In this document: in pieces, positions 1,462 through 34,869 of the stretch
How the letters are laid out: each line of letters begins with the position of its first letter
Position numbering within the stretch: position 1 is the stretch's first letter
Notes under the pieces: generated by a model
Told to the model about the DNA's origin: nothing
Databases searched by the model: none
The model's input: the letters and a program-made list of their open reading frames with translations, nothing else
Program-made: the position numbers and the translations under genes
Source of the DNA: Candidatus Magasanikiibacteriota bacterium
GTDB taxonomy: Bacteria > Patescibacteriota > Patescibacteriia > Magasanikbacterales > UBA922
DNA length: 45,052 nucleotides
Reading direction: 5' to 3'
NCBI GenBank assembly: GCA_018661775.1
Contig: JABJHO010000053.1
Coordinates: forward strand, 1-45,052

Positions 1462-1842
1462 ATGAGTAAGAGATGGGTTAAATTCATGGTCATAGTAATC
1501 CTCGCTGTTTTTCTCTTTCTTTGTAAGGGTGGGTCTCTGGCTTCTGCTGTGCATAGTATGGAAATCGGAGGGCATGGACATGGTGATACCATGTCTTGTT
1601 GTGACACCGAATCTTCAGTCAGTATAAATCACGATATTGGAGAGGCGCTACCCTCTCGTAATTTATTTATTTTCACGCCTGTTCTCAGTCTTGGTATTGC
1701 TTTTTTTGTGGTATTTTATAAACCACCACCTTTTTTAGTATCATATGTCTTGTCGAGAAAAAAAAGGTATGGAAGCTTTCGGTTATTACATTACCTTATT
1801 TTGCTTTTTAGTCGAGGTATACTCCATTCCAAAGTGTTCTAG
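1462..1842 (+). CDS. Small exported or membrane protein with His and Cys metal-ligand motifs
   Basis: 126 residues. An N-terminal signal or anchor helix (about residues 5-25, VKFMVIVILAVFLFLC) is followed by a short segment with HGHGD, an adjacent CC pair and several His, then a second hydrophobic helix (about 68-87) and a basic tail. The spacing of His and Cys suggests a metal site on the outer face of the membrane. It lies between the His-rich membrane protein and copA, so a copper role is inferred from context. Family unknown. The very basic, aromatic last 30 residues could be disordered. Confidence 0.6.
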   Translation: MSKRWVKFMVIVILAVFLFLCKGGSLASAVHSMEIGGHGHGDTMSCCDTESSVSINHDIGEALPSRNLFIFTPVLSLGIAFFVVFYKPPPFLVSYVLSRKKRYGSFRLLHYLILLFSRGILHSKVF

Positions 1843-1919
1843 TTGCGGGTGTAGATAGGTCGTATGCTTTTTGTGTTTGCATAGGGCTTTTTTTGATTAT
1901 TAATGTATAATAAAAATAT

Positions 1920-2048
1920 ATGAATGAGAAAAAATCATTGTTTAAACTATTACCTCTAAAGCAGGTCTTTGTGCTTGGGTTATTATTCTCTTTTTTTTGT
2001 ATAACCACAGCAGGCTTCTTTTTCTTGCTTTTTCGGTATGTTATATAA
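1920..2048 (+). CDS. 42-residue single-helix membrane microprotein
   Basis: ATG at 1920 opens a frame of 42 codons ending with TAA at 2046-2048, three bases before the copA start. The product has a charged N-terminus (MNEKKSLFKLLPLK) and one hydrophobic helix (about residues 15-42). A TATAAT hexamer at 1906-1911 precedes it, without a clear -35 box. The sequence resembles the short N-terminal anchor of periplasmic thioredoxin/DsbA-like proteins in this kind of bacterium, but the globular domain is absent. It could be a genuine copper-locus microprotein or the remnant of a longer gene. The tight spacing to copA argues for co-transcription. Confidence 0.5.
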   Translation: MNEKKSLFKLLPLKQVFVLGLLFSFFCITTAGFFFLLFRYVI

Positions 2049-2051
2049 TCT

Positions 2052-4436
2052 ATGAAACAAGAACGATATCCAATAGTCGGGATGCATTGCGCATCTTGTA
2101 AAAAGTTAATTGAAACACTCGTCGGGAAACTAGACGGTGTAACGGAAGTTGCCGTAAACTACGGTACAGAAAAAATGGATGTGACCTATGACGAATCGAA
2201 AATATCACTAGAGAAGATTGCAGAGACAGTAAAGCAGGCTGGTGGGTATGAACTCGTGCATACGGAAGATACTACCGTACTCGCAAGTGAATATGAAGTA
2301 GATAAAATGAACATGGATATGGACATGAAGGCTGATGATACCAATCCACATGCAGGTCACGCAGCAGTGATGAAAGAAAAAGAATATAAACTACTACAAA
2401 AAACAGTACTTTGGGTGGGAATCGGTGTGATTCCATTTGCCGCGATGATGATTGGGATGCTACTGCAAGCACTTGGTGTAGTTAGTATTGGTATGGCTCC
2501 ACTCGGATTTATTGAGTTTAGTGGCGGAGACTACACAATCAATACCTTATTCCTATTACAATTCTTACTAGCAACGCCAATCCTCTTCATTGGAGGAAAG
2601 CGATTCTTTGTAAACACCTGGCGAGCACTCAAAGTACGTAGTGCAAACATGGATACACTCATCGCGCTTGGTACTACTACCGCATGGGTTTTTTCTACAC
2701 TTGTTACGTTTATCCCACATTTGTTTGGAGACGTTGCCGAAGATGTATTCTTTGAAGCGGCGGCATTTATCGTATCCTTTATCCTCATGGGAAGACTACT
2801 CGAGGCGCAGGCAAAGTCAAAAACAATGGGAGCCGTGAAAGCATTGTTTGAGCTCCAAGCAAAAGATGCCACAGTACTACGGGATGGAAAAGAAGTCCGT
2901 GTCCCTATTGCGGAAGTAATCAAAGGTGACCTCATTATCGTACGACCCGGAGAGAAAGTACCGGTAGACGGAGTAATCACCAAGGGAGCAAGTACCATTG
3001 ACGAATCAATGGTAACCGGTGAATCCATTCCAACAGACAAAGCCGTTGGAGATGCGGTAATAGGTGCGACCATTAACAAAACAAGCACCTTTACCTTTCA
3101 AGTGAACAGTGTTGGGAGCGATACGATGCTTGCGCGCATTATCAAAATGGTAGAAGACGCACAAGGGTCTACCGCCCCAATTCAAAAACTAGCAGACAAA
3201 GTTTCTGGTGTATTTGTGCCAGTCGTAATTGTGATAGCATTAGTCGCTGCTGCATTTTGGTTATTTGTAGCGCCAAGTATTGGATTTGTACCTACGGACA
3301 TTAACGCTGTACAACTCGCAACATATATTGCAACGACCATACTCATCATCGCCTGCCCGTGTGCGCTCGGCTTAGCTACGCCTACAGCGGTAATGGTTGG
3401 AACTGGAAAGGCTGCTGCAAAGGGAATCTTGGTAAAAGATGCTGAGGCACTAGAGAAAGCAAACAAAATACATACCATCGTCTTTGATAAGACAGGAACA
3501 CTGACCAAAGGACAGCCAGAAGTAACCGCTACGGAGTTTTCTTCGGGAGCTGATCGAAATGAAATACTTACGTTTGCGCATGCACTCGAGCATTTATCTG
3601 AACATCCTCTGTCTACTGCTATTACAACATATGCCAAACAAGAAGTGAAAAGCATGAGTGATCTAGAAGTAGATAATTTCAAAATGATAGAAGGCCGCGG
3701 AGTAAGTGGAGATATTGATGGTAAAACTATTTATATTGGAAATACGCGACTACTTGATGAACAAAACGTAACACTAGATCCTGCACTCAAACAAACCGCT
3801 GAGACACTTACTGCGCAGGCGAAGACGACTATCTATATGTCAGTAGATAGGAAACATGTAGTCGTATTTGCACTTGCAGATGCAGTAAAAGAAGAATCAA
3901 AACATGCTATTGAAGCGCTACATACACTTGGTATCAAAACAGTCATGATGACCGGAGACAATCAAGCTACGGCAGACGCAATTGCCACTGAGCTTGGAAT
4001 TGACCAAGTTGAAGCAGAAGTACTCCCAGCAGACAAAGCAAATCTGATAAAGAAAATTCAATCTGAATCAGATGGGGGAGTAGTGGCAATGGTAGGAGAC
4101 GGAATCAACGATGCGCCAGCGCTTGCGCAGGCAGATATTGGGATTGCCATGGGGACAGGGACAGATGTGGCTATTGAAGCCGGAGACATTGTCCTCGTAC
4201 ATGGTACGCTCGATAAAGTAGTAGAGACTATTCAGGTATCCAAATCAACATTGAATGTTATCAAACAGAATTTATTCTGGGCATTTGGGTACAACATTAT
4301 CGCTATTCCGGTAGCCGCTGGAATTTTGTATCCAGTATTTGGCATTCTCCTTTCACCGATTATTGCTAGTGCTGCAATGGCATTTAGCTCTGTGTCTGTG
4401 GTGTTGAATAGTTTGCGGTTGAAGCGGAAAAAGTAA
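2052..4436 (+). CDS. copA: Copper-translocating P-type ATPase CopA (P1B-1 type)
   Basis: 794 residues, normal length. It opens with one HMA domain carrying GMHCASC (about residues 9-15), followed by a Met/His/Asp-rich linker (about 80-105, with [11 protein letters not shown] and HAGHAA). Core motifs in order: TGES in the actuator domain, the membrane CPC ion site (C435-P-C437), phosphorylation site DKTGT (D479), the nucleotide-binding SEHPL loop, and [16 protein letters not shown]. The last two helices carry FGYN and MAFSS, the ligand set of the Cu(I)-exporting P1B-1 subgroup. It exports Cu+ from the cytoplasm at the cost of ATP. Neighbours on both sides also carry metal motifs. No cognate regulator (CsoR, CopY or CueR type) is visible in the window. 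Confidence 0.95.
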
Positions 4437-6146: not shown

Positions 6147-7430
6147 ATGACACAAAAAGAACAGAATACTGGTCGTTTTTGCGACCTTGGGATAGAAGAA
6201 AAACTTCTTACGACTCTTACAAAAAAAGGGTTTACTACACCAACACCAATTCAGCACCAAGTGATCCCAGGTGCTCTTCAAGGAAAGGACGTGGTTGGTA
6301 TTGCACAAACAGGTACAGGAAAAACCTTGGCTTTTGGTATTCCAATGATTCAACACCTTTCTTCTCAAAAGGGGCAAGGGTTGATTTTGGTACCAACTCG
6401 TGAACTTGCATTGCAAGTAGAGGATTCTTTGAAGCAGATTTGTGGACCAATCGGACTCCGCTCTGCAGTGTTTATAGGTGGTACATCAAAAGGACCACAA
6501 ATAAGGGCGCTTCGCCAGAATCCCCATATTATCATAGCGACTCCAGGTCGTTTGGTAGACCTCATGGACATGGGTGTGTGTCGTCTAGACAAGATTACGC
6601 TACTCACATTTGATGAGGCCGACAGAATGCTTGATATTGGGTTTTTGCCACAAATTAAACGTATCCTTACAACTATTCCAAAGAAAAGGCAGACATTGCT
6701 GTTTTCGGCTACAATGCCAAAGACTATCTCTTCGCTTGCTCGTGAATTTATGAGCATGCCACTAAGGATTGAGATTGCTCCACAGGGAACATCTGCTGAA
6801 AACATTGAACAAGAGATTTTTATGGTGAATAAAAATAGTAAAATGCGTTTACTTGATTCATTACTTGAAGAGTACAAAACTAATACAACACTTATTTTTT
6901 CACGAACAAAACATGGGGCAAAACGTATTGCAAGTAGTGTGCGAAACATGGGATACACTGCCACTGAAATTCATTCAAACCGTTCGCAAAGCCAAAGAAA
7001 AATGGCCCTTGATGGATTTAGAAAAGGGAAGTTTCGTATAATGGTTGCAACAGATATCGCATCTCGTGGTATAGACGTGAAAGAAATATCTTTGGTGATT
7101 AACTTTGATCTACCAGATAGCACAGAAGATTATGTGCACAGAATTGGTCGAACAGGGCGAGCCGGAAGATTAGGAAAAGCAATCTCTTTTGCCGAACCAT
7201 CACAAAAGTTTGATATTAAAAAAATAGAGAGATTAATACGAAAAACACTACCAAAATCAGCATTACCAGAACTTCCTCCTGAAAGAGAGAAGCCAAAGTA
7301 TGATGAAAGCGGTGGGAATCGTAATTTTGCCAAGCGTGGAAGTAGAAAGCATGCATTTCCAAAGCATAAAAAAAGAAGTAGAGATAATAAAAAGCACGGA
7401 GCAAAAAAAGAATCATTATTTGCAAGATAA
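6147..7430 (+). CDS. DEAD-box ATP-dependent RNA helicase (RhlE/CshA-like)
   Basis: 427 residues with the full helicase motif set in order: the Q motif (GFTTPTPIQ, about 28-36), Walker A AQTGTGKT (53-60), PTREL, TPGR, DEAD, SAT, and the second RecA domain with ATDIASRGID and HRIGRTGRAG. A basic, low-complexity tail (about 375-427, many K, R, H and G) probably binds RNA. It unwinds structured RNA in ribosome assembly and mRNA turnover. It is transcribed alone: its own promoter and a terminator bracket it. The structured leader suggests translational control. Which DEAD-box subfamily it belongs to cannot be settled by eye. Confidence 0.93.
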   Translation: MTQKEQNTGRFCDLGIEEKLLTTLTKKGFTTPTPIQHQVIPGALQGKDVVGIAQTGTGKTLAFGIPMIQHLSSQKGQGLILVPTRELALQVEDSLKQICGPIGLRSAVFIGGTSKGPQIRALRQNPHIIIATPGRLVDLMDMGVCRLDKITLLTFDEADRMLDIGFLPQIKRILTTIPKKRQTLLFSATMPKTISSLAREFMSMPLRIEIAPQGTSAENIEQEIFMVNKNSKMRLLDSLLEEYKTNTTLIFSRTKHGAKRIASSVRNMGYTATEIHSNRSQSQRKMALDGFRKGKFRIMVATDIASRGIDVKEISLVINFDLPDSTEDYVHRIGRTGRAGRLGKAISFAEPSQKFDIKKIERLIRKTLPKSALPELPPEREKPKYDESGGNRNFAKRGSRKHAFPKHKKRSRDNKKHGAKKESLFAR

Positions 7431-7434
7431 TCAT

Positions 7435-7466
7435 AAAAAACCCAGCAAACATGCTGGGTTTTTTTT
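7435..7466 (+). terminator. Terminator after the helicase gene
   Basis: CCCAGCA (7441-7447), loop AACA, TGCTGGG (7452-7458), flanked by A6 upstream and T8 downstream. Confidence 0.92.
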
Positions 7467-7493
7467 GTGCATACAGAGAAAAGCACAGTAATG

Positions 7494-7508
7494 CATTGTG
7501 CGACACTA
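7494..7508 (+). repeat. Interspersed 15-bp motif, copy 1
   Basis: CATTGTGCGACACTA. Identical 15-mers occur at 43421 and 44495, a 13-base core on the other strand at 44745, and a 10-base part at 45021. This copy lies between a terminator and the next promoter. Confidence 0.75.
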
Positions 7509-7554
7509 TTTATGATAAATTATGAAAAAAAACTAGTAACGCACAGTCTTTACC

Positions 7555-7583
7555 TTTACCAAAAGCATAAGAGATGCTATACT
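7555..7583 (+). promoter_or_regulatory. Promoter of the prenyl diphosphate synthase gene
   Basis: TTTACC (7555-7560), 17-bp spacer, TATACT (7578-7583). The -10 box lies downstream of an in-frame ATG at 7574, so that ATG cannot be on this transcript and the start is moved to 7598. Confidence 0.65.
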
Positions 7584-7597
7584 TTCAAAAAAAAGGT

Positions 7598-8674
7598 ATG
7601 AAACAACTCCATACATTTGCTCAAACATTTAATAGCGATTTAGCAGTATTTATAGAGGAACGAATGCAATTTTGCACAGACCTAACCAAGGATCCTATAT
7701 TTTTGGTGGCAATTGAGCAGACAAAACAATTGATCCTTGGGGCCGGAAAGCGTATTCGACCATACAATGCACATATGGGGTTTTGTGTTGGAAAGAATGG
7801 TATGGATAATGCAACGTATATAGAAGCTGTAAAAAACTATCTTTTGGCCATTGAGCTTTTTCATGTGTTTTGTTTGATCCATGACGACATTATAGACAAA
7901 AGTATATTGCGTCGTGGTGTGCCGACGATTCATGCAGTAATTTATGAGAAATACACAAAAGAGAAGCGGGTTGGTGATGTGTATCATGCCGCCACGTCCC
8001 ACGCTATTTTAATGGGAGATATTGTATTTTCTTGGATTATGATGCTGCTTCAGCCAAGCCAAATATCGGAACCACAAAAACATGCTGTAGAATATTTTAA
8101 TACCATGGTTCATGAAGTAAATATAGGGCAGATGATTGATTTAGATATTACTACTTTAGAAAACGTAACAAAAGAAAAGATATACGAAAAGATGAAAATG
8201 AAAACTGCTTTTTACACCTTTGTTCGACCGATGCACATTGGCTATGCGCTTGCCGGAGGAAAAGACACAAAGACTATACAGGATTTATCTGTTTTTGGTA
8301 ACCATTTGGGCATTGCGTTTCAGATACAAGATGACATATTAGATGTGTATGCCACAAAAAAAGAAAGTGGAAAGGTGTTGTGTAAAGATTTGCAAGAAGG
8401 GCAACATACGCTGCTTACGCAGTATGTACACGAACAAGGGTCACAAGAGCAAAAAAATACGCTTGAGAGGGTGTTTAGGAAAGAGGTGCAAGATGTGGAT
8501 ATTCCTGCTGTTCAGGAATTTTTTACAAAAACCGGAGCGTATGACTATGCCACAAGTTGCCTTGAGGAAGAAATGGAAAAAGCCAAAACATGTGTACGAG
8601 AAATGGAAGTTGGGCAAGAGATAAAAAATGAACTCCTTGTACTTGCTGATTTTGTGGTCAAAAGGAAGGTGTAG
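7598..8674 (+). CDS. Polyprenyl (geranylgeranyl/farnesyl-type) diphosphate synthase
   Basis: 358 residues from ATG 7598, preceded by AAAAGG. Trans-prenyltransferase hallmarks are both present: first Asp-rich motif DDIID (D96, D97, D100) preceded by a Phe five residues upstream, and second motif DDILD (D245, D246, D249). The early GKRIRP segment binds diphosphate. The enzyme condenses isopentenyl diphosphate with allylic diphosphates, giving precursors for the undecaprenyl carrier, quinones or membrane prenyl chains. The aromatic residue before the first motif suggests a shorter C15-C20 product, but chain length is not certain. Transcribed singly, ahead of tRNA-Asn. Confidence 0.88.
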   Translation: MKQLHTFAQTFNSDLAVFIEERMQFCTDLTKDPIFLVAIEQTKQLILGAGKRIRPYNAHMGFCVGKNGMDNATYIEAVKNYLLAIELFHVFCLIHDDIIDKSILRRGVPTIHAVIYEKYTKEKRVGDVYHAATSHAILMGDIVFSWIMMLLQPSQISEPQKHAVEYFNTMVHEVNIGQMIDLDITTLENVTKEKIYEKMKMKTAFYTFVRPMHIGYALAGGKDTKTIQDLSVFGNHLGIAFQIQDDILDVYATKKESGKVLCKDLQEGQHTLLTQYVHEQGSQEQKNTLERVFRKEVQDVDIPAVQEFFTKTGAYDYATSCLEEEMEKAKTCVREMEVGQEIKNELLVLADFVVKRKV

Positions 8675-8690
8675 AGGCTTTTGTATCCAC

Positions 8691-8719
8691 TTGACGTGGA
8701 GGTAAGGGCAGTATATACT
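8691..8719 (+). promoter_or_regulatory. Promoter of tRNA-Asn
   Basis: TTGACG (8691-8696), 17-bp spacer, TATACT (8714-8719), 23 bases before the tRNA. Confidence 0.78.
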
Positions 8720-8741
8720 ATGGTTCGTAGAACAATGTGAT

Positions 8742-8813
8742 TCCGCGGTAGCTCAGTGGTAGAGCAGTTGGCTGTTAACCAATTGGTCGTCGGTTCGAGC
8801 CCGACCCGCGGAG
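8742..8813 (+). tRNA. tRNA-Asn (anticodon GUU)
   Basis: Acceptor stem TCCGCGG (8742-8748) with CCGCGGA (8806-8812), discriminator G8813, then genomic CA. The anticodon stem GTTGG/CCAAT encloses CTGTTAA, giving GTT. D arm (AGCTCAGTGGTAGAGC) and T arm (CGGTTCGAGCCCG) are regular. Confidence 0.96.
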
Positions 8814-8821
8814 CAATGATG

Positions 8822-8849
8822 AAAAAAGCTGAAAACCTCAGCTTTTTTT
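8822..8849 (+). terminator. Terminator after tRNA-Asn
   Basis: A-rich run then AGCTG (8827-8831), loop, CAGCT (8839-8843) and a T7 run; with the flanking A/T runs the stem is about 10 bp. Confidence 0.85.
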
Positions 8850-8963: not shown

Positions 8964-9404
8964 ATGCAAACACATTACCCGTCACTTTTGGTTGTGCTTA
9001 ATTCTCAAAAAGCATTATGGTTTTCGGTTAAAGAGGATGGTGTGGAGCTAGTAGAAGAGTTGGGAGAAAAGAAAGAACGATACACCGACCATGAAGCGCA
9101 TTTTTCTGCAAGTGGAACTGGTGCAACAGGGCAATCAGGGGCAGCTGATGTAGATAACAAAAGAGACGCAGAGTCTTTGAGTAAACACATAAAACACGTT
9201 GCCGAAAAAACACACGTATTGTGGCAGGAAAACAGATTTGCACATTTGAGTGTTATAGCACCCGAACAGTATAAAAATGATGTTGCTTCAGAAATACACA
9301 AAAGTATACCAAACCAACAAATAGATATGGTTTTTGGGAACCATGTACATGCCTCAAAAAAAGAGGTAAAGGCATTGTTTCTGCGCAGTATTCGACCACA
9401 ATAA
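8964..9404 (+). CDS. Host_attach/baeRF-like single-domain protein
   Basis: 146 residues. It starts with a hydrophobic strand and 'LNSQKALWFSVKEDGVELVEEL', has a variable Gly/Ser/Asp-rich middle (about 45-70), then 'LSKHIKHVAEKTHVLWQENRFAHLSVIAPEQYKN' and ends in a helix. This is the pattern of the Host_attach / bacterial eRF1-like (baeRF) families, related to eRF1 domain 2. Some baeRF proteins are thought to act in ribosome rescue; whether this one binds ribosomes is inference. The last residues and stop codon are repeated 767 bp downstream, and the gene's own terminator appears broken (see the 55-bp repeats). A TATAAT at 8885-8890 may serve as its -10 box. Confidence 0.6.
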   Translation: MQTHYPSLLVVLNSQKALWFSVKEDGVELVEELGEKKERYTDHEAHFSASGTGATGQSGAADVDNKRDAESLSKHIKHVAEKTHVLWQENRFAHLSVIAPEQYKNDVASEIHKSIPNQQIDMVFGNHVHASKKEVKALFLRSIRPQ

Positions 9405-9420
9405 TAAAAATCCCCTAAGT
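9366..9420 (+). repeat. 55-bp direct repeat, left copy
   Basis: Matches 10133-10187 with one mismatch (9374 C versus 10141 A). It covers the last 12 codons and stop of the preceding gene plus the first arm of a terminator (AATCCCCTAAG). The second terminator arm is missing here. Confidence 0.9.
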
Positions 9421-9513
9421 CTGTTATTTGTACACTGTTCCTGGCGTGTCTAAAAAGAGTGTATGAAAAATTGCATCATTGTGTATAATATATAAGATCT
9501 AAAAAATAACAGT

Positions 9514-10080
9514 ATGTCTAAAGTTGTTTTTAAAAATACGATAAAAAAATACACAAAACACATAATCGACCCAGAGGAAAAGAAAACTGTTGAGATTCTT
9601 TTGGATAATATAGAAAATAACAAAGACTTCTTTGTTAGAAAAAAAGTTTCTGGAAAGATAGACATTGCAGCATCTGTATTACTTTTGTCAGAAGATCTGG
9701 AGAATGGCTTGTTTTTATTTCACAAAAAAATACAAAAATGGACAATGCCAGGCGGGCATGCTGACGGTGAGACTGATTTGCATAAGGTTGCATTAACCGA
9801 ACTTAAAGAAGAGGTGGGGGTAACAATAGAGCAAAAAAAAGGAATACTTCCTGTTTTTACGTACAAGTTTGATTACTCTCCAGAGGTTTTTGGGTATAAA
9901 AAAAGTATTATAAATTTATTTTATATAGAGACTTGCCCTGTGAGTCAAATACCAAAAATAATGGAACCTGATAAGTGTGAAGAGTTGCGGTGGATGAGCG
10001 TAGAGGAGGTAAAAAAATTAGCAAAAAAAAATAACTATAAAAGTTATTTGAGACTTGCTGAGGTTTGGGATAGTATGTAG
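9514..10080 (+). CDS. NUDIX hydrolase
   Basis: 188 residues. An N-terminal 60-residue helical segment precedes the NUDIX fold. The NUDIX box reads GGHADGETDLHKVAL then TELKEEVGV: the ...EE..G catalytic end is intact, with one extra residue between the two halves and T in place of R, a variant common in 'PGGHADG' type NUDIX proteins. The substrate, a nucleoside diphosphate linked to some moiety, cannot be told. A TATAAT at 9484-9489 could be its -10 box. It sits entirely between the 55-bp direct repeats, suggesting that it entered or was duplicated as a 767-bp unit. Confidence 0.85.
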   Translation: MSKVVFKNTIKKYTKHIIDPEEKKTVEILLDNIENNKDFFVRKKVSGKIDIAASVLLLSEDLENGLFLFHKKIQKWTMPGGHADGETDLHKVALTELKEEVGVTIEQKKGILPVFTYKFDYSPEVFGYKKSIINLFYIETCPVSQIPKIMEPDKCEELRWMSVEEVKKLAKKNNYKSYLRLAEVWDSM

Positions 10081-10132
10081 AGCCGGTGTATTTTTTACTA
10101 AATTTTTCCCGTTCCTTTTTGGTCTGTTTTGG

Positions 10133-10187
10133 GGTAAAGGAATTGTTTCTGCGCAGTATTCGACCACAATAATAAAAATCCCCTAAG
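10133..10187 (+). repeat. 55-bp direct repeat, right copy
   Basis: Second copy of the 9366-9420 segment, now non-coding upstream. It retains the intact terminator that the left copy lost. Confidence 0.9.
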
Positions 10188-10206
10188 CATTTTAGGGGAT
10201 TTTTTT
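10178..10206. terminator. Bidirectional terminator between the NUDIX and NRAMP genes
   Basis: ATCCCCTAA (10178-10186), 5-base loop, TTAGGGGAT (10192-10200), T run to 10206; A-rich on the other side. It can end transcription from both convergent genes. Confidence 0.9.
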
Positions 10207-10215
10207 ATGAGTAAT

Positions 10216-11616
10216 TTAGGTGAGTATTTTATGAACTTGCTCCCAAATAGTAAAGAGACTAAATGCGCCAAAAATACCAAAAGCAGTAAGCATGATGAGT
10301 TTGCGCCAAAGTTTTGCTTGGAGAGGTTCTGGAAGTGTTTTGTGGTTCATCCAGTTTACCATTCCTATGTGTACAAACATGGCAATAGCGTTGAGCACGG
10401 CTCCAAGGATGATAAGAAAGCGTGGTTCGGTAACATTGAATAAGAAGAGTATTATACCAAAAGCAATTTGTGCCCAAAGAAAAGAAAAGTATATTTTTGA
10501 TAAATGGACTTTGCTATCTTTTTTTCTTCCCAGCTTCTTTATCGCGAAGTTCTCGGCCATTATTCGTGATGACGAGTCAAGAACACCAAGTTGTGTTTGA
10601 AACAACATAATGGCAACAGCAAGAAGAAAGAGAATGCCTATGGCGGGGGAGATTGTTTGTGAAAGAATGGATCCTTGGTTCATAACAAATTGAATACCTT
10701 CTGCATTTGTGCCAGAGCCATATGTGGTAGTATATGCAAGAAGCATAAGAAGACACATGGTGAGCGCTCCAATAAACCAAAAAACAAGCCCGTGTTCTAT
10801 GTTAATTCGTTTCCACCATAAGTTAAAGTTGGCAATGTTTTCTTTGTTTAAGGCAAATGAGTGCCCTTCGAGCCGCACACTCTGCTCTCCATCCTCTGCT
10901 CGGAAAAGACCGGCTATTTTTTGCGAGTATTTCCCCATACCATACCCCTTTTCTTTTACGTAAATTGATTGTGTGAGATTAAGATTTCCCCCGGCTCCTG
11001 AATAGGCAAATGCAGCAAAAAAGGATGCAATAAAGATACCTTCTGGTAAGAACATATACCCATCACCCTGACCAACGAGACCCTGAGCAAGAGCACCCCA
11101 ATCTGCCGCCTTGGCAGACAAAAACGTAAGAACTAATATAAATGGGACAGCAAGTAAAATAAGTTTCGTGGTAAATGATTCCATCATGTCATACACCGTC
11201 TTTCCGACGCTGAGCATAATACCAATGACAAGGAGCATTCCAATGGCAATCCATTTAAAATTTGGCAAACCAAGAACGCTCCCTAGGACTTTTGCTGATG
11301 CGGCTATAATTCCAGGAATACCAAAGCCAACAAATGTAGAAACAATAAACCATGATGGTGCACGTTTAAAGCGTTTTGCTAGACCCACAAACACACTTTC
11401 TCCACGGACAAGAGCATAGCGTTCAATTTCTAAATTCATGAAAAATTGAATGGTAATTCCAAGTAGTGCGCCCCATGCAATACCAAGACCAAAGTTGGCC
11501 GCTAAATAGGGCCAAAGAATAACCTCTCCAGACCCAAGACCAAGGGCCAAAATAATAAAACTTGGACCTATCATCTTTTTGATAGGAATTGGTTTGGGGA
11601 ATTTCTTTGTACTCAT
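10216..11616 (-). CDS. NRAMP-family transporter lacking the canonical metal-site motifs
   Basis: 466 residues with 11 or so hydrophobic helices. The start of the fold (GPSFIILALGLGSGEVILWPYLAANFG, residues 17-43) is recognisably NRAMP. The first helix has GLGSGE where manganese/iron NRAMPs have DPGN, and the sixth-helix region reads FAYSGAGGNLNLTQSIY with no MPH motif. It therefore belongs to a divergent NRAMP-related clade whose substrate is not predictable as Mn or Fe; Mg-transporting NRAMP relatives are one known precedent. A long loop (about 215-270) is predicted between helices. Convergent with the NUDIX gene and divergent from dnaE; a TATACT on this strand (11650-11645) may be its -10 box. 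Confidence 0.82.
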   Translation of the reverse strand: MSTKKFPKPIPIKKMIGPSFIILALGLGSGEVILWPYLAANFGLGIAWGALLGITIQFFMNLEIERYALVRGESVFVGLAKRFKRAPSWFIVSTFVGFGIPGIIAASAKVLGSVLGLPNFKWIAIGMLLVIGIMLSVGKTVYDMMESFTTKLILLAVPFILVLTFLSAKAADWGALAQGLVGQGDGYMFLPEGIFIASFFAAFAYSGAGGNLNLTQSIYVKEKGYGMGKYSQKIAGLFRAEDGEQSVRLEGHSFALNKENIANFNLWWKRINIEHGLVFWFIGALTMCLLMLLAYTTTYGSGTNAEGIQFVMNQGSILSQTISPAIGILFLLAVAIMLFQTQLGVLDSSSRIMAENFAIKKLGRKKDSKVHLSKIYFSFLWAQIAFGIILFLFNVTEPRFLIILGAVLNAIAMFVHIGMVNWMNHKTLPEPLQAKLWRKLIMLTAFGIFGAFSLFTIWEQVHKILT

Positions 11617-11674
11617 ATAGTATGGTGTTGTATATTATGTATACAGTATAGCACATTCTTTGTTTTGCTGCATA

Positions 11675-11703
11675 TTGATTTTGATTATTGAATACGGTAC
11701 TAT
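11675..11703 (+). promoter_or_regulatory. Promoter of dnaE
   Basis: TTGATT (11675-11680), 17-bp spacer, TACTAT (11698-11703), about 23 bases upstream of the ATG after the expected start site. Confidence 0.6.
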
Positions 11704-11732
11704 ATATGCACAAGTATATATCATGATTTTTT

Positions 11733-14700
11733 ATGTCAGAATTTGTCCACCTTCATGTCCACTCACACTATTCTCTGTTATGTGGTCTAACAAAAGTAAA
11801 ACCCTTAGTAAAAGCAGCAAAGGAGCGCGGATTTTCTTCTCTAGCGCTTACTGACAATGGCGCACTCTATGGCGCAATAGAATTTTACCAGGCTTGTATT
11901 AAAGAAGAAATAAAGCCTATTATTGGATTTGATGCATATATTGCTGCTAGGAGTATGTATGACAAGGATCTTACAAAAGATAAAACTATTTATCGTCTTG
12001 TTTTGATAGCAGAAAACTATGAAGGGTATAGAAATTTAATGAAGCTCAGTTCCGAAGCATTTCTTAACGGATTTTTTAATGGAAAACCGCGACTAGATAA
12101 AGACTTGTTGCGAAAGTATAATAAAGGGGTTATTGCTCTATCTGGGTCAATTGATGGTGAGGTGCCATATTTTTTGCGTACCGGAAAAGATGAGGTAGCG
12201 AAAAAAGTAGCACTTGAGTATCAAGAAATATTTGGAGAGAATAATTTTTTTCTTGAATTACAGGATCACCCAGCCATTGAAGGGCAATTGGGTGTAAATA
12301 ACAAGCTTATTGCTTTGTCAAAAGAAACAGGTATTCCAATGGTGGTGACACGAGATGTGCATTATTTAAATACTGACCAGGCCGATTCACAAGATATTTT
12401 GCGGTGTATTAGTGAAGGTTGGAAAGTGGGGTATACAGACAGAGAAGATTTTAGGCATGTCGATAGATCGTTCAATACCGCGGAAGATATTATTTCTCGG
12501 TTTCGTCATGTGCCAGAGGCGATTAAGAATACGGTGTGTATTGCGGATCGGGTAGACATAGATATCCCGCTAAATAATTGGCATTTTGCGCCAGTTGATT
12601 TACCTCCAGGAAAAACTGCCGATGAGTTTCTGCGCGAAGAAGCATTTCAGTGTGCCCCAGATTTTTATCCAGAAATGGGTAAGGAGATAACGGACAGAAT
12701 TGAGTATGAGCTTGATATTATTAAAACAAAAGGATACTCGCCATATTTTATCTGTGTTGCTGATTATGTCCAGTATGCAAAAAGTAGGGGAATAGTAGAA
12801 TCAACGCGTGGGTCAGCCGCAGGCTCTCTTGTTTCTTATGTTTTAGGGATTACCACAGTTGATCCTATTCGGTTTAAACTTCCTTTTGAAAGGTTCCTTA
12901 ATCCTTTTAGACCAAGTCCTCCTGATGTGGATACGGATTTTGCTGATGATAGAAGAGATGAGATGATTGAGTATGTGACAAATAAATACGGTGCAGATAA
13001 GGTTGCACAGATTATTACATTTGGAACCATGGCAGCCAGAGCGAGCGTGCGTGATGTTGGGCGAGCACTTGGATTGTCGTATAGTTTTTGTGATCAGGTT
13101 GCAAAGCTTATTCCTCCGGCGGTTCAAGGGTTTCCTATGACAATTGATAAAGCACTAAAAGAGGAGCCAGATTTAAAGAAATTATATGAGACGAATGAGG
13201 ATGTTAAAAAATTATTGGATTTAGCACAGCAGGTAGAAGGGTGCGCAAGACATACATCAATTCATGCTGCTGGTGTTGTTATTTCACCAACCCCACTTAC
13301 AGATTTTTGTCCTGTACAGCGTGAGTCTGGTGGGGATAGGATTATTACACAATATGAAATGAAGTCAGTGGAAACAGCTGGTGTACTAAAGAACGATTTT
13401 TTAGGTATTCGAAATCTGTCTATTTTGGGTAATAGTGTGGAGATTGTAGAAAAAACAATGGGAGATGTTATTGATATTTATAATTTACCACTTGATGATG
13501 CAAAGGTTTTTGAGATGCTTGCACGTGGTGAAACCATGGGGGTTTTCCAGTTATCTAGTTCTGGTATGACGCGGTGGCTTAAAGAGTTGAAACCAACAAA
13601 TATTGATGATATTATGGCGATGGTTGCGTTATATCGACCAGGACCAATGGACTTTATCCCAGAATATATTAAAAGAAAACATCATCCAGAAACGGTAGAC
13701 TATCCACATCCAGCGCTTGAAGATATTTTGAAAAAGTCTTTAGGGCTCCTTATCTATCAAGATGATGTGATGCTTACCGCTATTGAGCTAGCAAAATATG
13801 ACTGGCTTGAGGCAGATAAATTTAGAAAAGCAATGGGAAAGAAAATCCCGGAGCTTATGGTGGAGCAAGAAAAGAAGTTTAAAGATGGGTGTGTGGCAAA
13901 CAAGATTGATAAGTCGATTGCGAATGATTTGTGGGAAAGAATTAAACCTTTTGCAACATATGCCTTTAATAAAGCACATGCGGCTAGCTATGGTATTGTT
14001 GCGTATCAGACCGCGTACATGAAGGCACACTATCCAGTGCAATATATGACGGCCATTTTACAAGCAGAATTTGGTGATACAGAAAAGGTGGCAGCAATCG
14101 TTCATGCATGCAAAAGAATGGGTATTACTGTACTACCGCCAGATGTCAATGAGAGTTTTAAAAACTTTGCTATGGTATCAAAACATGGGGAGCCCGGAAG
14201 AATTCGATTTGGGTTAACAGCTGTCAAAAATGTTGGGGAGCATATCTGTGAAGTGGTGTATCGTGAAAGGAAGGCACATGGTCAGTATAAAAGCTTAGAG
14301 GATCTGTTGGAACGGGTAACTGATAAAGATTTGAATAAAAAATCACTTGAAAGCCTTATTCAAACAGGCGCTTTAGATTGTTTTGGTCATGATAGAGGGG
14401 TGCTGTTGACTAACAGCGAAAATATTTTGTTTTTTAGTAAGCAACACAAAGAGAAGCAGGTGTCTCAGCAGGAGTCATTGTTTTCGGGAACGAAAATAGC
14501 CATGGATAATAAAGTGGTGTTGAAAGAGGCACAAAACGCAACATTAGAAGATAAGCTTGCGTGGGAAAAGAATCTTATGGGGTTGTATATTTCCTCCCAT
14601 CCTTTTTTGTATTATCAAGAGGTGATGGTGCAAGAAAATGCACCATTAGTACCACTTATAGATGTGGAAGAGTTTGACCGAGACGCATGGGTGATTGTTG

Positions 14701-15282: not shown

Positions 15283-16362
15283 TTAGCGCATTGCACGAAT
15301 ATTCATATTCCAGTGGTGGTAAAATAGAATATTTGCAAGGTCGGGAATCCAACTCACCACACGAAGTCTATCCTTTTCTATAAGCTGGTTGAGCCCTCGC
15401 TCGTGCACTGGGATTGTATCTGTAATATACACTCTGTCAATAGGGCAGTCTTCTGAATTGAACTGTTCTATTGCATTTCCACAAAGCACACCATGGGTAG
15501 CTGCTGCCCAAATAGCAGAAACTCCATGTATCTCCTTTAGGGCTTTTGCAACAGAAATATTTGTTCCACCTGTGGCAAGTTCATCGTCGAGAGTGATAAC
15601 TAATGAATTTGGCAAGAGTGCCTTGTTGCTTTCAATATCTGTCACCAGGCCCAGGTGTTGTGTCGTGTGGCTATTATACCGTCTTTTGTATGCGGTAAAA
15701 ATTGGCACATGCTCCATGCCCATTGCCGAAAGAATGGTGTGGACAGGTTTGGCAAATGTTTTATGTGCTCCATCATCAGGAAAGAGAAGGCAGATATGTT
15801 CTAGACCCGCTGCTTCGGCGTCACCAAGCGCTTGGGCCAAAAGGCGTCGCATCATAGAGACTGGCGTGATGATTCCTGTTTCTCCTGCCATTACAATTTG
15901 GGGGCTATGTGGATCAGGGACAATAATGCGGTCAATACTGTTTCCGCAAGATGTCTGAAAGAGGCGGTACAATAATCCAGGGAGCGCAAGCTCGAGTGAT
16001 CCTTCGTCTTTGTCTGATCGCGAAAGAGGAAAATATCCAGTGACCAAACTGATTCTGCGCGCATGTCTCCCTTTTACGTAGGCTAAAATCAGCATAATCT
16101 GTATCAGTGTTTCTGGTGTACCGGACCCTCCTGCAAGAACCATAACATCGTGTCCACTAATATGGTTGTTTGATAATTGCACAAATGGTTCACCGCTTGG
16201 TCTGATGCCCCATTTTGGCAATGCAATATCAACAGGGGTATCTTGTGTTGGTTTGTGCACCTTTTCCTCAATAATTTTTGAGATTCTGTGTGCTTGCCTT
16301 TCAAATTTTGGTAAAGGAACGAGAGTGAACCCACCATTTGAGTTGTGTGGCCCATTTTGCAT
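15283..16362 (-). CDS. Divergent ribose-phosphate pyrophosphokinase (PRPP synthetase-like)
   Basis: 359 residues. The best landmark is the PRPP-binding loop in 'LVITLDDELATGGTNISVAKAL' (about 255-276). Other PRPP synthetase landmarks are weaker: RPSGEPFVQL..SGHDVMVLAG matches the RFSDGE..RGKDVFII region, and GYFPLSRSDKDE matches the PYFGYARQDRK region. The enzyme would make PRPP from ribose 5-phosphate and ATP for nucleotide synthesis. Several conserved residues are replaced, so a PRPP-binding relative with another role is possible. The start is supported by AAGGAG five bases upstream. Located downstream of tsaD on the same strand but with its own promoter. Confidence 0.75.
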   Translation of the reverse strand: MQNGPHNSNGGFTLVPLPKFERQAHRISKIIEEKVHKPTQDTPVDIALPKWGIRPSGEPFVQLSNNHISGHDVMVLAGGSGTPETLIQIMLILAYVKGRHARRISLVTGYFPLSRSDKDEGSLELALPGLLYRLFQTSCGNSIDRIIVPDPHSPQIVMAGETGIITPVSMMRRLLAQALGDAEAAGLEHICLLFPDDGAHKTFAKPVHTILSAMGMEHVPIFTAYKRRYNSHTTQHLGLVTDIESNKALLPNSLVITLDDELATGGTNISVAKALKEIHGVSAIWAAATHGVLCGNAIEQFNSEDCPIDRVYITDTIPVHERGLNQLIEKDRLRVVSWIPDLANILFYHHWNMNIRAMR

Positions 16363-32216: not shown

Positions 32217-34869
32217 ATGTGCGTGATACTGTGGTGATTGCAAGTTTATCTTGTGTAATGTCAGTTGTTATGCTGTCTCCCTTTTTTATATCTCCTTCAA
32301 TAATTTTCATTGCAAGTGGGTCAAGTAATTCAGATTGCAGAATACGTTTGAGTGGTCGGGCCCCAAGTGTTGGGTCAAAACCTTTTTCGCCCAACCAGTC
32401 TTTAGATTTCTTTGATACCTCTATGTGAATTTTCTTCTTAGCAAGTCTTTGTTTAATACTATCTAATTGAAGGTCTACTATTTCTCGTATTTGTTTTTTA
32501 TCAAGTGGACGGAACATGATTATATCATCAACTCTATTCAAAAATTCAGGTTTGAAATGCTCTCTTAATGCCTCCATGACTTTTTGCTTAATGACTGTTT
32601 CATTTTCAATAATACCTTTTTTGTTTCCACCATCACCAAAGCCAAACTCACCTCTACGACTTAAATTCATAATCATTTCTGAGCCCACATTACTCGTCAT
32701 AATAATAACAGTATTTTTGAAATTTACTTTTCGCCCTTTTGCGTCAGTAAGTCGCCCATCATCAAGAATTTGTAACATAACATTAAACACTTCAGGGTGT
32801 GCTTTTTCTATTTCATCAAACAGTACAACAGAGTATGGTCTTCGCCTGATCTTTTCTGTGAGCTGCCCCCCTTCTTCATACCCTACATACCCAGGTGCTG
32901 AACCCATCATTTTACTCACCGAGTGCTTTTCCATGTATTCACTCATATCAACACGAACCACTGCTTCATCATCATTAAAAAGAAATTCTGCCAAGGCCTT
33001 TGCAAGTTCTGTTTTTCCTACACCTGTTGGGCCCATAAAAATAAATGAACCTATAGGTTTCTTCTCTTCTGAAATACCGGCACGAGAACGTCGAATGGCG
33101 TTTGATACGGCTGTAATGGCCTCATGTTGCCCAATAACACGCTCCTGTAGTCCGTTTTCCATCTTGGCAAGCTTCTTTACCTCATCTTCAAGCATTTTGT
33201 TTACAGGCACTCCTGTCCATCTAGAGACGACCGCCGCTATATCTTGTTCGGTAACTTCTTCTTTAAGGATGGCACGTCCTTTCTGCACGTGAGTAAGTTT
33301 TTTTTCCAATAATTTAATAATCTCCTCCTTTTGTGGAATTTGTGCATACCTAATTTCGGCGACTTTTTGTAAATCACCGCGCCGCTCGGTAATTTCAGCC
33401 TCTTGTTTAAGAGAATCAATATCTTTGTTTGCGGTTCGAATTTGCATGATAATATCTTTTTCGTTTTTCCAGTGCAACTCTAGCTCATTACTTTTTTCTC
33501 GAAGATTTTCTAGGCTTTCCTGTAGAGTAATAAGGCGGTTTTGAGAGTCTACATCCTTTTCTTTTTTGAGTGCTTCAATCTCAATTTCTTGTTTCATCAT
33601 TTGTCGTTTCATTCTATCAAGATCGTCTGGCATAGAATCAATTTCCATACGTAACGCTGAAGTGGCTTCATCAATAAGGTCTATGGCTTTGTCTGGTAAA
33701 AATCTATCCGAAATGTAGCGAGAAGATAGCTCTACCGCCGCTATTATGGCCGGGTCAGTAATGCGAACACCATGATGTACTTCATATTTTTCTTTAATAC
33801 CACGAAGAATAGCTATGGCGTCATCTTTTTCTGGCTCGGACACAAGGACTGGTTGAAATCGACGCTCAAAAGCGGCATCTTTTTCTATGTACTGTTGGTA
33901 TTCTTTAAGGGTTGTGGCGCCAACTGTGTGGAGTTCTCCACGTGCAAGTGCTGGCTTAAGCATATTACTTGCATCAATAGCTCCTTCACTAGATCCTGCG
34001 CCAACAATGGTATGAAGCTCGTCAATAAAAAGAATAATCTTTCCTTGAGATTGGCCAACCTCTTTGAGTACCGCCTTGAAGCGTTCTTCAAATTCTCCTC
34101 TAAATTTTGTTCCAGCGATAAGCGCACCAATATCAAGACCAATAACTTCTTTATCGGTAATAGACTCAGGAACATCGCAATTTACAATTCTTTGTGCAAG
34201 CCCTTCTACGATTGCCGTTTTTCCAACACCTGGTTCTCCTATAAGAACAGGGTTATTTTTTGTTCTTCGCGTAAGGACTTGCATGACACGTCTAATTTCA
34301 TCATCTCGGCCAATGACTGGATCAAGTTTTTCATTTCTTGCTCTTTCGGTAAAATTAATACCATACTTTTCAAGGGATTGGTATGTTCTTTCTGGTGTGG
34401 GGGAGTGTGCGGACTGGTTTCCGCGTACCTGCACAAGAGCTTTCAGTACATTGTCGTATGTAACACCCTCTGCTATAAGAATATCACTAATAGGATTTTT
34501 ATTTTGCATGTAGGCCAGAAGGAGATGTTCTACGCTAATAAAAGAGTCACCCATCTTCTTTGATTCGGCGTGGGCATTTTGTAATACGTACATCATGGCT
34601 TGTCCCATTAATATTTGACCACCACTTCCAGGGCTTGGGCCAAATTGCTTTGGTAAGGTTGCCACAAGATCATGTGTGTGTGCAGAAATTACCTCAATAG
34701 GAATATCAAGCTGCTTGAGCAGTGACACCACGATACCATCTTCTTGTTGGAGTAATGCTGAAAATAAATGGGGCGGTTCAATTTGAGGTTGTTTGTTCTC
34801 CTGTGCAATGCGATTTGCATGTTGGAGTGCTTCTTGTGATTTGTGAGTAAATTGTTGTGGATTTAGCAT
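32215..34869 (-). CDS. clpB: ATP-dependent chaperone ClpB
   Basis: 884 residues, typical. The N domain (1-150, two Clp repeats) is followed by AAA1 with GEPGVGKT (211-218) and [13 protein letters not shown], the long coiled-coil M domain (about 405-525), and AAA2 with GPTGVGKT (near 610), [14 protein letters not shown] and GARPLKR. No ClpP-binding IGF loop is apparent, as expected for the disaggregase. It rescues aggregated proteins with DnaK. Control by HrcA is indicated by a CIRCE-type operator directly after its promoter. Confidence 0.97.

Follow-up and report, generated by a model that had tools for sequence, protein, structure and literature searches.

A NUDIX hydrolase gene between two copies of the end of a Host_attach gene in a Magasanikiibacteriota genome

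Insertions into bacterial chromosomes are known from several systems, and the arrangement described here shares features with each of them. Tycheposons, which measure 4–200 kb and carry xerD (PMC10872708), resemble our locus, as do other genomic islands at the 3′ ends of tRNAs or genes, in having a repeat on each side that regenerates the gene end, and one of our additional cases lies at a tRNA-Pro. However, these islands span kilobases and bring a recombinase, whereas the inserts found here measure 0.15–1.5 kb and contain none. The likeness to integron cassette arrays lies in the presence of one gene per repeat unit and in the tandem units found at recG. Unlike integron cassettes, the repeat is the coding end of a host gene, specific to its locus and not of the attC type. 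An attC-type site common to the different cassettes was not found, the only strong structure of the window repeat being a terminator hairpin, and the integrase-like protein on contig C1 scores below its model cut-off.

Two systems without gene-end repeats are also close. In Neisseria, minimal mobile elements hold different genes between the same conserved flanks, which was ascribed to the exchange of gene cassettes (PMC2649163). Similarly, the stretch between a tRNA-Asn and an Nramp gene at our locus holds different genes in the host genome and its congener. Minimal mobile elements are not known to be defined by gene-end repeats; the NUDIX site differs in being marked by one. Homology-facilitated illegitimate recombination is described as joining a foreign stretch by homology on one side only, in natural transformation (PMC3240628). 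It resembles our case in that a single foreign stretch is involved and a dedicated recombinase is not needed. The known cases are laboratory events that mostly lose resident DNA, whereas the NUDIX site duplicates resident DNA and its joining points are those that we infer. Searches of an open-access library, which are no proof of novelty, gave no description of the layout in Patescibacteria. The question bears on how very small, recombinase-poor genomes of the Patescibacteria type gain genes.

The duplicated gene end and its insert

The window, that is, the whole stretch of 45,052 bases that was analysed, comes from a host genome of 981,017 bases (G000), which has one congener (G001) among the 46 family genomes searched. 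The features of the locus are as follows.

8742–8814, plus strand: tRNA-Asn (gtt), conserved left flank, common to the congener
8964–9404, plus strand: Host_attach / baeRF-type gene (PF10116), 146 aa, intact, with its 3′ end duplicated
9365–9419, plus strand: left repeat copy, holding the last 12 codons and stop of Host_attach and the first hairpin arm
9420–10132, plus strand: insert between the 55-bp copies, 713 bp, GC 32.5%
9484–9489, plus strand: perfect TATAAT upstream of the NUDIX gene, read by eye and not among the promoter-scan matches
9514–10080, plus strand: NUDIX hydrolase gene (PF00293), 188 aa
10133–10187, plus strand: right repeat copy (54/55), outside any intact Host_attach reading frame
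10174–10204: terminator hairpin in full, with a T-run on either strand, common to the convergent gene
10216–11616, minus strand: Nramp family divalent metal transporter gene (NF037982, 300.1 bits), conserved right flank

The two copies are identical at 54 of 55 bases with a period of 768, and the sole mismatch falls at base 9, which is C in the left copy and A in the right. An earlier note on this DNA had reported the same degree of match, which holds, but had placed the left copy one base off: at its exact coordinates (9366–9420 against 10133–10187) just 20 of 55 bases match, and the measured period replaces its figure of 767 bp. The mismatch rate of 1/55 (95% interval 0.05–9.7%) fits a recent event, though it is a weak clock, and the NUDIX insertion was probably recent. 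A 30-nt core of the repeat occurs twice in the window and in none of 100 shuffles, and the pair is the only direct-repeat family of at least 30 nt in the window (seed 14). A query with positions 10100–10215 turned up no further copy in either the host genome or the congener; the remaining matches there were the reverse strand of the hairpin itself and stretches of 15–21 nt. The repeat core had 0 matches in IMG/VR.

The Host_attach reading frame scores 31.3 bits against PF10116 (cut-off 26.7), and its protein was aligned with three relatives at 32–35% identity. Since two of the three have the same C-terminal residues that the repeat encodes, the repeated segment is native to the end of this gene, and what lies on the right is a fragment without a gene. 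The left copy includes, beyond the last 12 codons and the stop, 15 nt that end in the hairpin loop, and on this side the complete hairpin does not form in the RNA fold, while the right copy continues into the complete hairpin (−17.1 kcal/mol, z −4.9). Sequence and RNA fold thus confirm what had been noted before, that each copy joins the upstream gene's last codons and stop to a terminator arm and that only the right side has the whole hairpin. The terminator scan called this hairpin on the minus strand, and a T-run is visible by eye on both strands, so it probably terminates from both directions and would also serve the convergent Nramp-type gene. With one arm of the hairpin remaining on the left and no plus-strand terminator listed there by the scan, read-through from Host_attach into the NUDIX gene is predicted to be plausible. 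The direct repeats restore the end of the target gene, whose reading frame is intact, and an insertion that duplicated the Host_attach 3′ end is the best reading of the repeat.

Between the copies, the NUDIX gene is the sole ORF of at least 80 aa, in keeping with the earlier count of exactly one such gene, and the insert therefore has no integrase or recombinase gene of that size. Its product scores 53.2 bits against PF00293 (cut-off 21.1), and the nearest solved structure is 3fcm (E 9e-9); the 188-aa protein is thereby placed in the NUDIX hydrolase family, with predicted catalysis. No good −35 element was listed by the promoter scan for the TATAAT. With 32.5% GC against 39.5% for the whole window, the insert is AT-rich; it stands at the 0.7th percentile within the window and, among 4,749 windows drawn from 502 kb of the host genome, at the 3.6th. 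Relatives of the NUDIX protein at E ≤0.001 occur in 30 of 59 genomes, own included, the best three others being 30–34% identical. At E ≤1e-9, matches are found in 3 of the 46 family genomes, again with its own, and GTDB 220 yielded 33 loci at 24–37% identity. The search for a donor of the NUDIX gene in IMG/VR gave 5 pattern matches and that for a donor of Host_attach in GTDB 220 gave 18, of which 0 were confirmed in either case. In a separate observation from another genus (G013, contig C10, L071), a Host_attach relative (1571–2014, minus strand) adjoins a different NUDIX gene (2065–2481, plus strand) in divergent orientation.

The congener matches the left flank (window 7575–8848, 77%) and the right flank (10237–12600, 76%), with the DNA of the Nramp gene at 76%, and these matches fall on two contigs, C22 and C10. 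Both the NUDIX gene and the Host_attach gene are absent from this genome, which keeps the flanks and has between them a 280-aa ORF without a Pfam match in place of both genes. Host_attach occurs in 5 of the 46 family genomes, own included. Conserved flanks with differing gene content are thus seen in the one congener available, and genes are turned over in the stretch from tRNA-Asn to Nramp. Exactly where the congener corresponds to the NUDIX site, C22 and C10 (L075, L074) have 169 nt in common at their ends (91%). This segment takes in the final codons of a different gene together with the Nramp gene's end, and it would represent either a similar duplication or two strain variants. A single-copy, unoccupied version of the exact Host_attach site was not found among the 46 family genomes with their one congener, nor was a relative close enough in the NUDIX or Host_attach gene for a comparison of sites.

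The same layout at other loci

Close direct pairs were scanned in 502,253 bases of the host genome (of 981,017), 396,129 of the congener, 400,000 of genome G029 and 277,395 of named loci, which gave 11, 3, 31 and 2 pairs, respectively. In the genus, 5 of the 14 pairs take in a gene or tRNA 3′ end with an unrepeated body (the window, L117, L131, L154 and L187), and 1 of 14 covers a 5′ end (L155), a tally made by eye and post hoc. The other eight lie within one ORF (L117), are paralogous (L142) or intergenic (L119, L144), or represent unit repeats (L151/L190) and multi-copy families (L146 and a second L190 pair). No gene-3′-end case was noted in the 400 kb of G029 (31 pairs, 5 viewed closely) or in the 277 kb of named loci (2 pairs). 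The additional cases are these.

L131 (host genome, contig C15): methyltransferase gene (PF01170) whose last 50-odd codons recur 507 bp on at 86%, 81-aa ORF between
L117 (host genome, contig C1): tRNA-Pro 3′ end and terminator, copies 54/55, 145-bp insert
L187 (congener): Sm_multidrug_ex gene (Pfam) whose end, with stop and hairpin, recurs 804 bp on at 86%, 205-aa ORF between
L154 (host genome, contig C39): recG 3′ end, two copies around a 471-aa gene

The copies are 86–98% identical across loci, and the repeats of different loci show no resemblance and no common core. The distal copies start about 6 to 57 codons from the stop, varying by locus, which would suit joining at irregular points better than one set site. 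None of the other inserts is AT-rich (GC percentiles of 37.9 for L131, 79.2 for L154, 20.8 for L187 and 99.9 for L117). For some of these loci, versions with a single end were seen. The tRNA-Pro 3′ end is single-copy in the congener. At the place matching L187, the gene in the host genome is followed by a single terminator and by a minus-strand gene resembling the next gene of the congener, a likeness judged by eye and from the conserved flanks. An empty methyltransferase site was not found in the search, in which 18 of 29 genomes matched, own included, the others at 63–85% and in pieces.

At recG, both versions seem to be present in the same assembly. In contig C36, recG (RecG_wedge) is directly followed by the start of a small gene. 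Contig C39 holds, in order, a 532-aa gene, 113 nt that match the recG end at 94%, the 471-aa gene, a second copy and the same small gene as C36; the second copy with the small gene matches C36 at 98% over 199 nt. C36 ends in 134 nt that are found unchanged in C39. Since neighbouring contigs elsewhere share exactly 141 nt, the two contigs probably meet in the assembly graph, even though 134 nt falls short of that length. On this sequence evidence, an empty (C36) and a doubly occupied (C39) version of the recG site seem to coexist. The picture would be identical if the downstream gene truly existed twice.

A broad control counted repeated segments centred on stops, on starts and on mid-gene positions, with segments having more than 3 extra copies set aside and with paralogues, RNA genes and contig overlaps included in the counts. 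The respective numbers were 33/432, 29/414 and 10/436 in the host genome, 12/327, 8/321 and 12/329 in the congener, and 40/318, 30/310 and 15/320 in G029, with no clear excess at stops over starts in any of the three. A special bias of repeats to gene 3′ ends is accordingly not claimed, stops being about equal to starts. The density of cases, 5 in 898 kb of the genus versus 0 in 677 kb elsewhere, did not differ significantly (Fisher p 0.075). If insertion were random, selection alone could retain the insertions that do not break a gene, so the position at 3′ ends is no proof of a site-specific process.

Possible routes of insertion

We give about an even chance to the reading that a laterally acquired NUDIX gene was inserted behind Host_attach by joining linked to DNA uptake, which duplicated the last 55 bp of that gene with a terminator arm. 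DNA from outside would have been taken up and joined at the hairpin loop behind Host_attach, and recombination or replication would have continued on the resident chromosome from a point 55 bp upstream. The Host_attach end would thereby stay full, the NUDIX gene would lie between the copies, and the original terminator would close both genes. Homology-facilitated illegitimate recombination or template switching at the hairpin could each produce such an arrangement, with no dedicated recombinase involved. Saccharibacteria have been proven to undergo natural transformation (PMC10633639), and for Patescibacteria DNA uptake is named among other routes in a study of 2025 (PMC12455944). ComEC is present in both the host genome and the congener, which would permit transformation. 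The direction of the event, the source of the DNA and the route of recombination are what we infer from the layout. An RNA-derived insert, considered because some of the repeats end at a terminator, was dropped, as the recG and methyltransferase repeats do not.

The earlier note had suggested a mini-element inserted with regeneration of the 3′ end. Its core, duplication by insertion, is retained on the strength of the native C-terminus, the AT-rich insert, the recurrence of the layout and the single-copy versions at some loci, while the mobile element itself finds little to act with. In a helper-dependent form of this idea, the 55 bp would be att sites, and a tyrosine recombinase working in trans would have placed a circle of 768 bp at the 3′ end of the gene. 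The regenerated gene 3′ end as target, the case at the T-arm end of tRNA-Pro, the tandem copies at recG and the two tyrosine recombinases of the host genome would all suit such an element. However, the insert has no recombinase, serine recombinases are absent from both genomes, and the congener (89% complete) has a case although 0 tyrosine recombinases were found in it. Of the two in the host genome, one is Xer-like (best model XerD, above the cut-off of the XerA model), and the other, of 282 aa (L198, contig C1, about 33170–34018, minus strand), has integron integrase as its best NCBIfam model, at 226 bits under a cut-off of 265; these two Xer- or integron-integrase-like proteins would have to serve four unrelated targets. 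The unlike repeats of the different loci, without a common core, and the varied starts of the copies argue against one dedicated integrase and for irregular joining. We therefore consider the helper-dependent element unlikely, and one-sided or template-switch insertion linked to uptake is favoured over a mobile element. Insertion-duplication of the Campbell type, in which a circle of the 55-bp segment and the NUDIX gene from the occupied site of another cell would enter by a single crossover, yields the order copy, insert, copy exactly. It would also explain the divergent copies (86–98%) as donor and resident versions, and it agrees with the apparent coexistence of occupied and empty recG versions. 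This route nevertheless presupposes that some site was already occupied, a 55-bp segment is little for homologous recombination, and the IMG/VR and GTDB scans gave no donor, which together make it rather improbable.

In another explanation, the Host_attach end, or the gene as a whole, was duplicated in tandem, and the second body was later replaced by the NUDIX gene. It has a parallel in the tandem paralogues with common ends and terminators in the host genome (two pentapeptide-repeat-like genes). Against it, no remnant of Host_attach was seen between the copies beyond the 55 bp, two events are required, and copies at 98% identity leave little time for the replacement. We judge it very unlikely, and the related suggestion in the earlier note, a duplication with loss of the second copy's body, is disfavoured on the same ground that nothing related to Host_attach is found between the copies. 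An assembly artefact or a strain chimera in the metagenome bin would be in line with an assembly that looks fragmented and strain-mixed, having exact 141-nt overlaps at contig ends and 96–98% variants at other ends. But the repeat lies mid-contig in 45 kb, its copies are not exact, and it is shorter than the apparent 141-nt overlap length and so insufficient alone to mislead the assembler; moreover, the L187 and L131 copies, at 86% identity, cannot be assembly duplicates. We hold an artefact to be highly improbable.

The outcome would be an ordinary one, the lateral insertion of a single gene, and is of some interest as it is recurrent and may be polymorphic at recG. Where one-gene insertions spare the host gene and leave a legible trace, the number of arrivals could be read from assemblies. 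The recG site, if it indeed has empty and occupied versions side by side, could serve to follow the process within a population. It is conceivable, though something of a long shot, that across the genus the 3′ ends of genes and tRNAs act as landing sites for single genes that need no dedicated recombinase; each arrival would add a copy of the end, so that sites could be reused, arrays such as that at recG could grow, and empty and occupied versions could coexist in one population.

Other repeats in these genomes

Several further arrangements of repeats were observed in the scanned stretches. In both species, two genes are each followed by a segment of 141 nt that includes a terminator, the units being 87–94% alike (host genome, L151, contig C36, 1786–1926 and 2826–2966; congener, L190, contig C14, 9–149 and 2367–2510). 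The congener has an extra 285-aa ORF between its units, and these gene-plus-repeat units seem to predate the split of the species. At L119 (host genome, contig C3), intergenic repeats of 82 nt and 87% identity (14427–14508 and 16257–16338) surround four minus-strand ORFs, three of which were tested and gave no Pfam match. A strong hairpin (z −3.45) lies between these repeats at 15715–15845; the arrangement has a cassette-like look, with a putative attC identity. At L144 (host genome, contig C29), a thioredoxin gene (7082–7405) stands between 95-nt direct repeats (6867–6960 and 7444–7538, 84%), each with a hairpin.

The two pentapeptide-repeat-like genes lie in tandem at L126 (host genome, contig C10, 12838–14078) between FtsH-like and pseudouridine-synthase-like genes, all named from reading, and are absent from the matching place in the congener (L184). 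A multi-copy intergenic family of ~130 nt, represented by L146 1446–1576, has copies in L131, L139, L140, L150, L151, L154 and L190, with 11 matches in the sampled stretches. In G029, related intergenic repeats are clustered over 11 kb (L159, 6041–16995) and are partly tandem with a 68-nt period.
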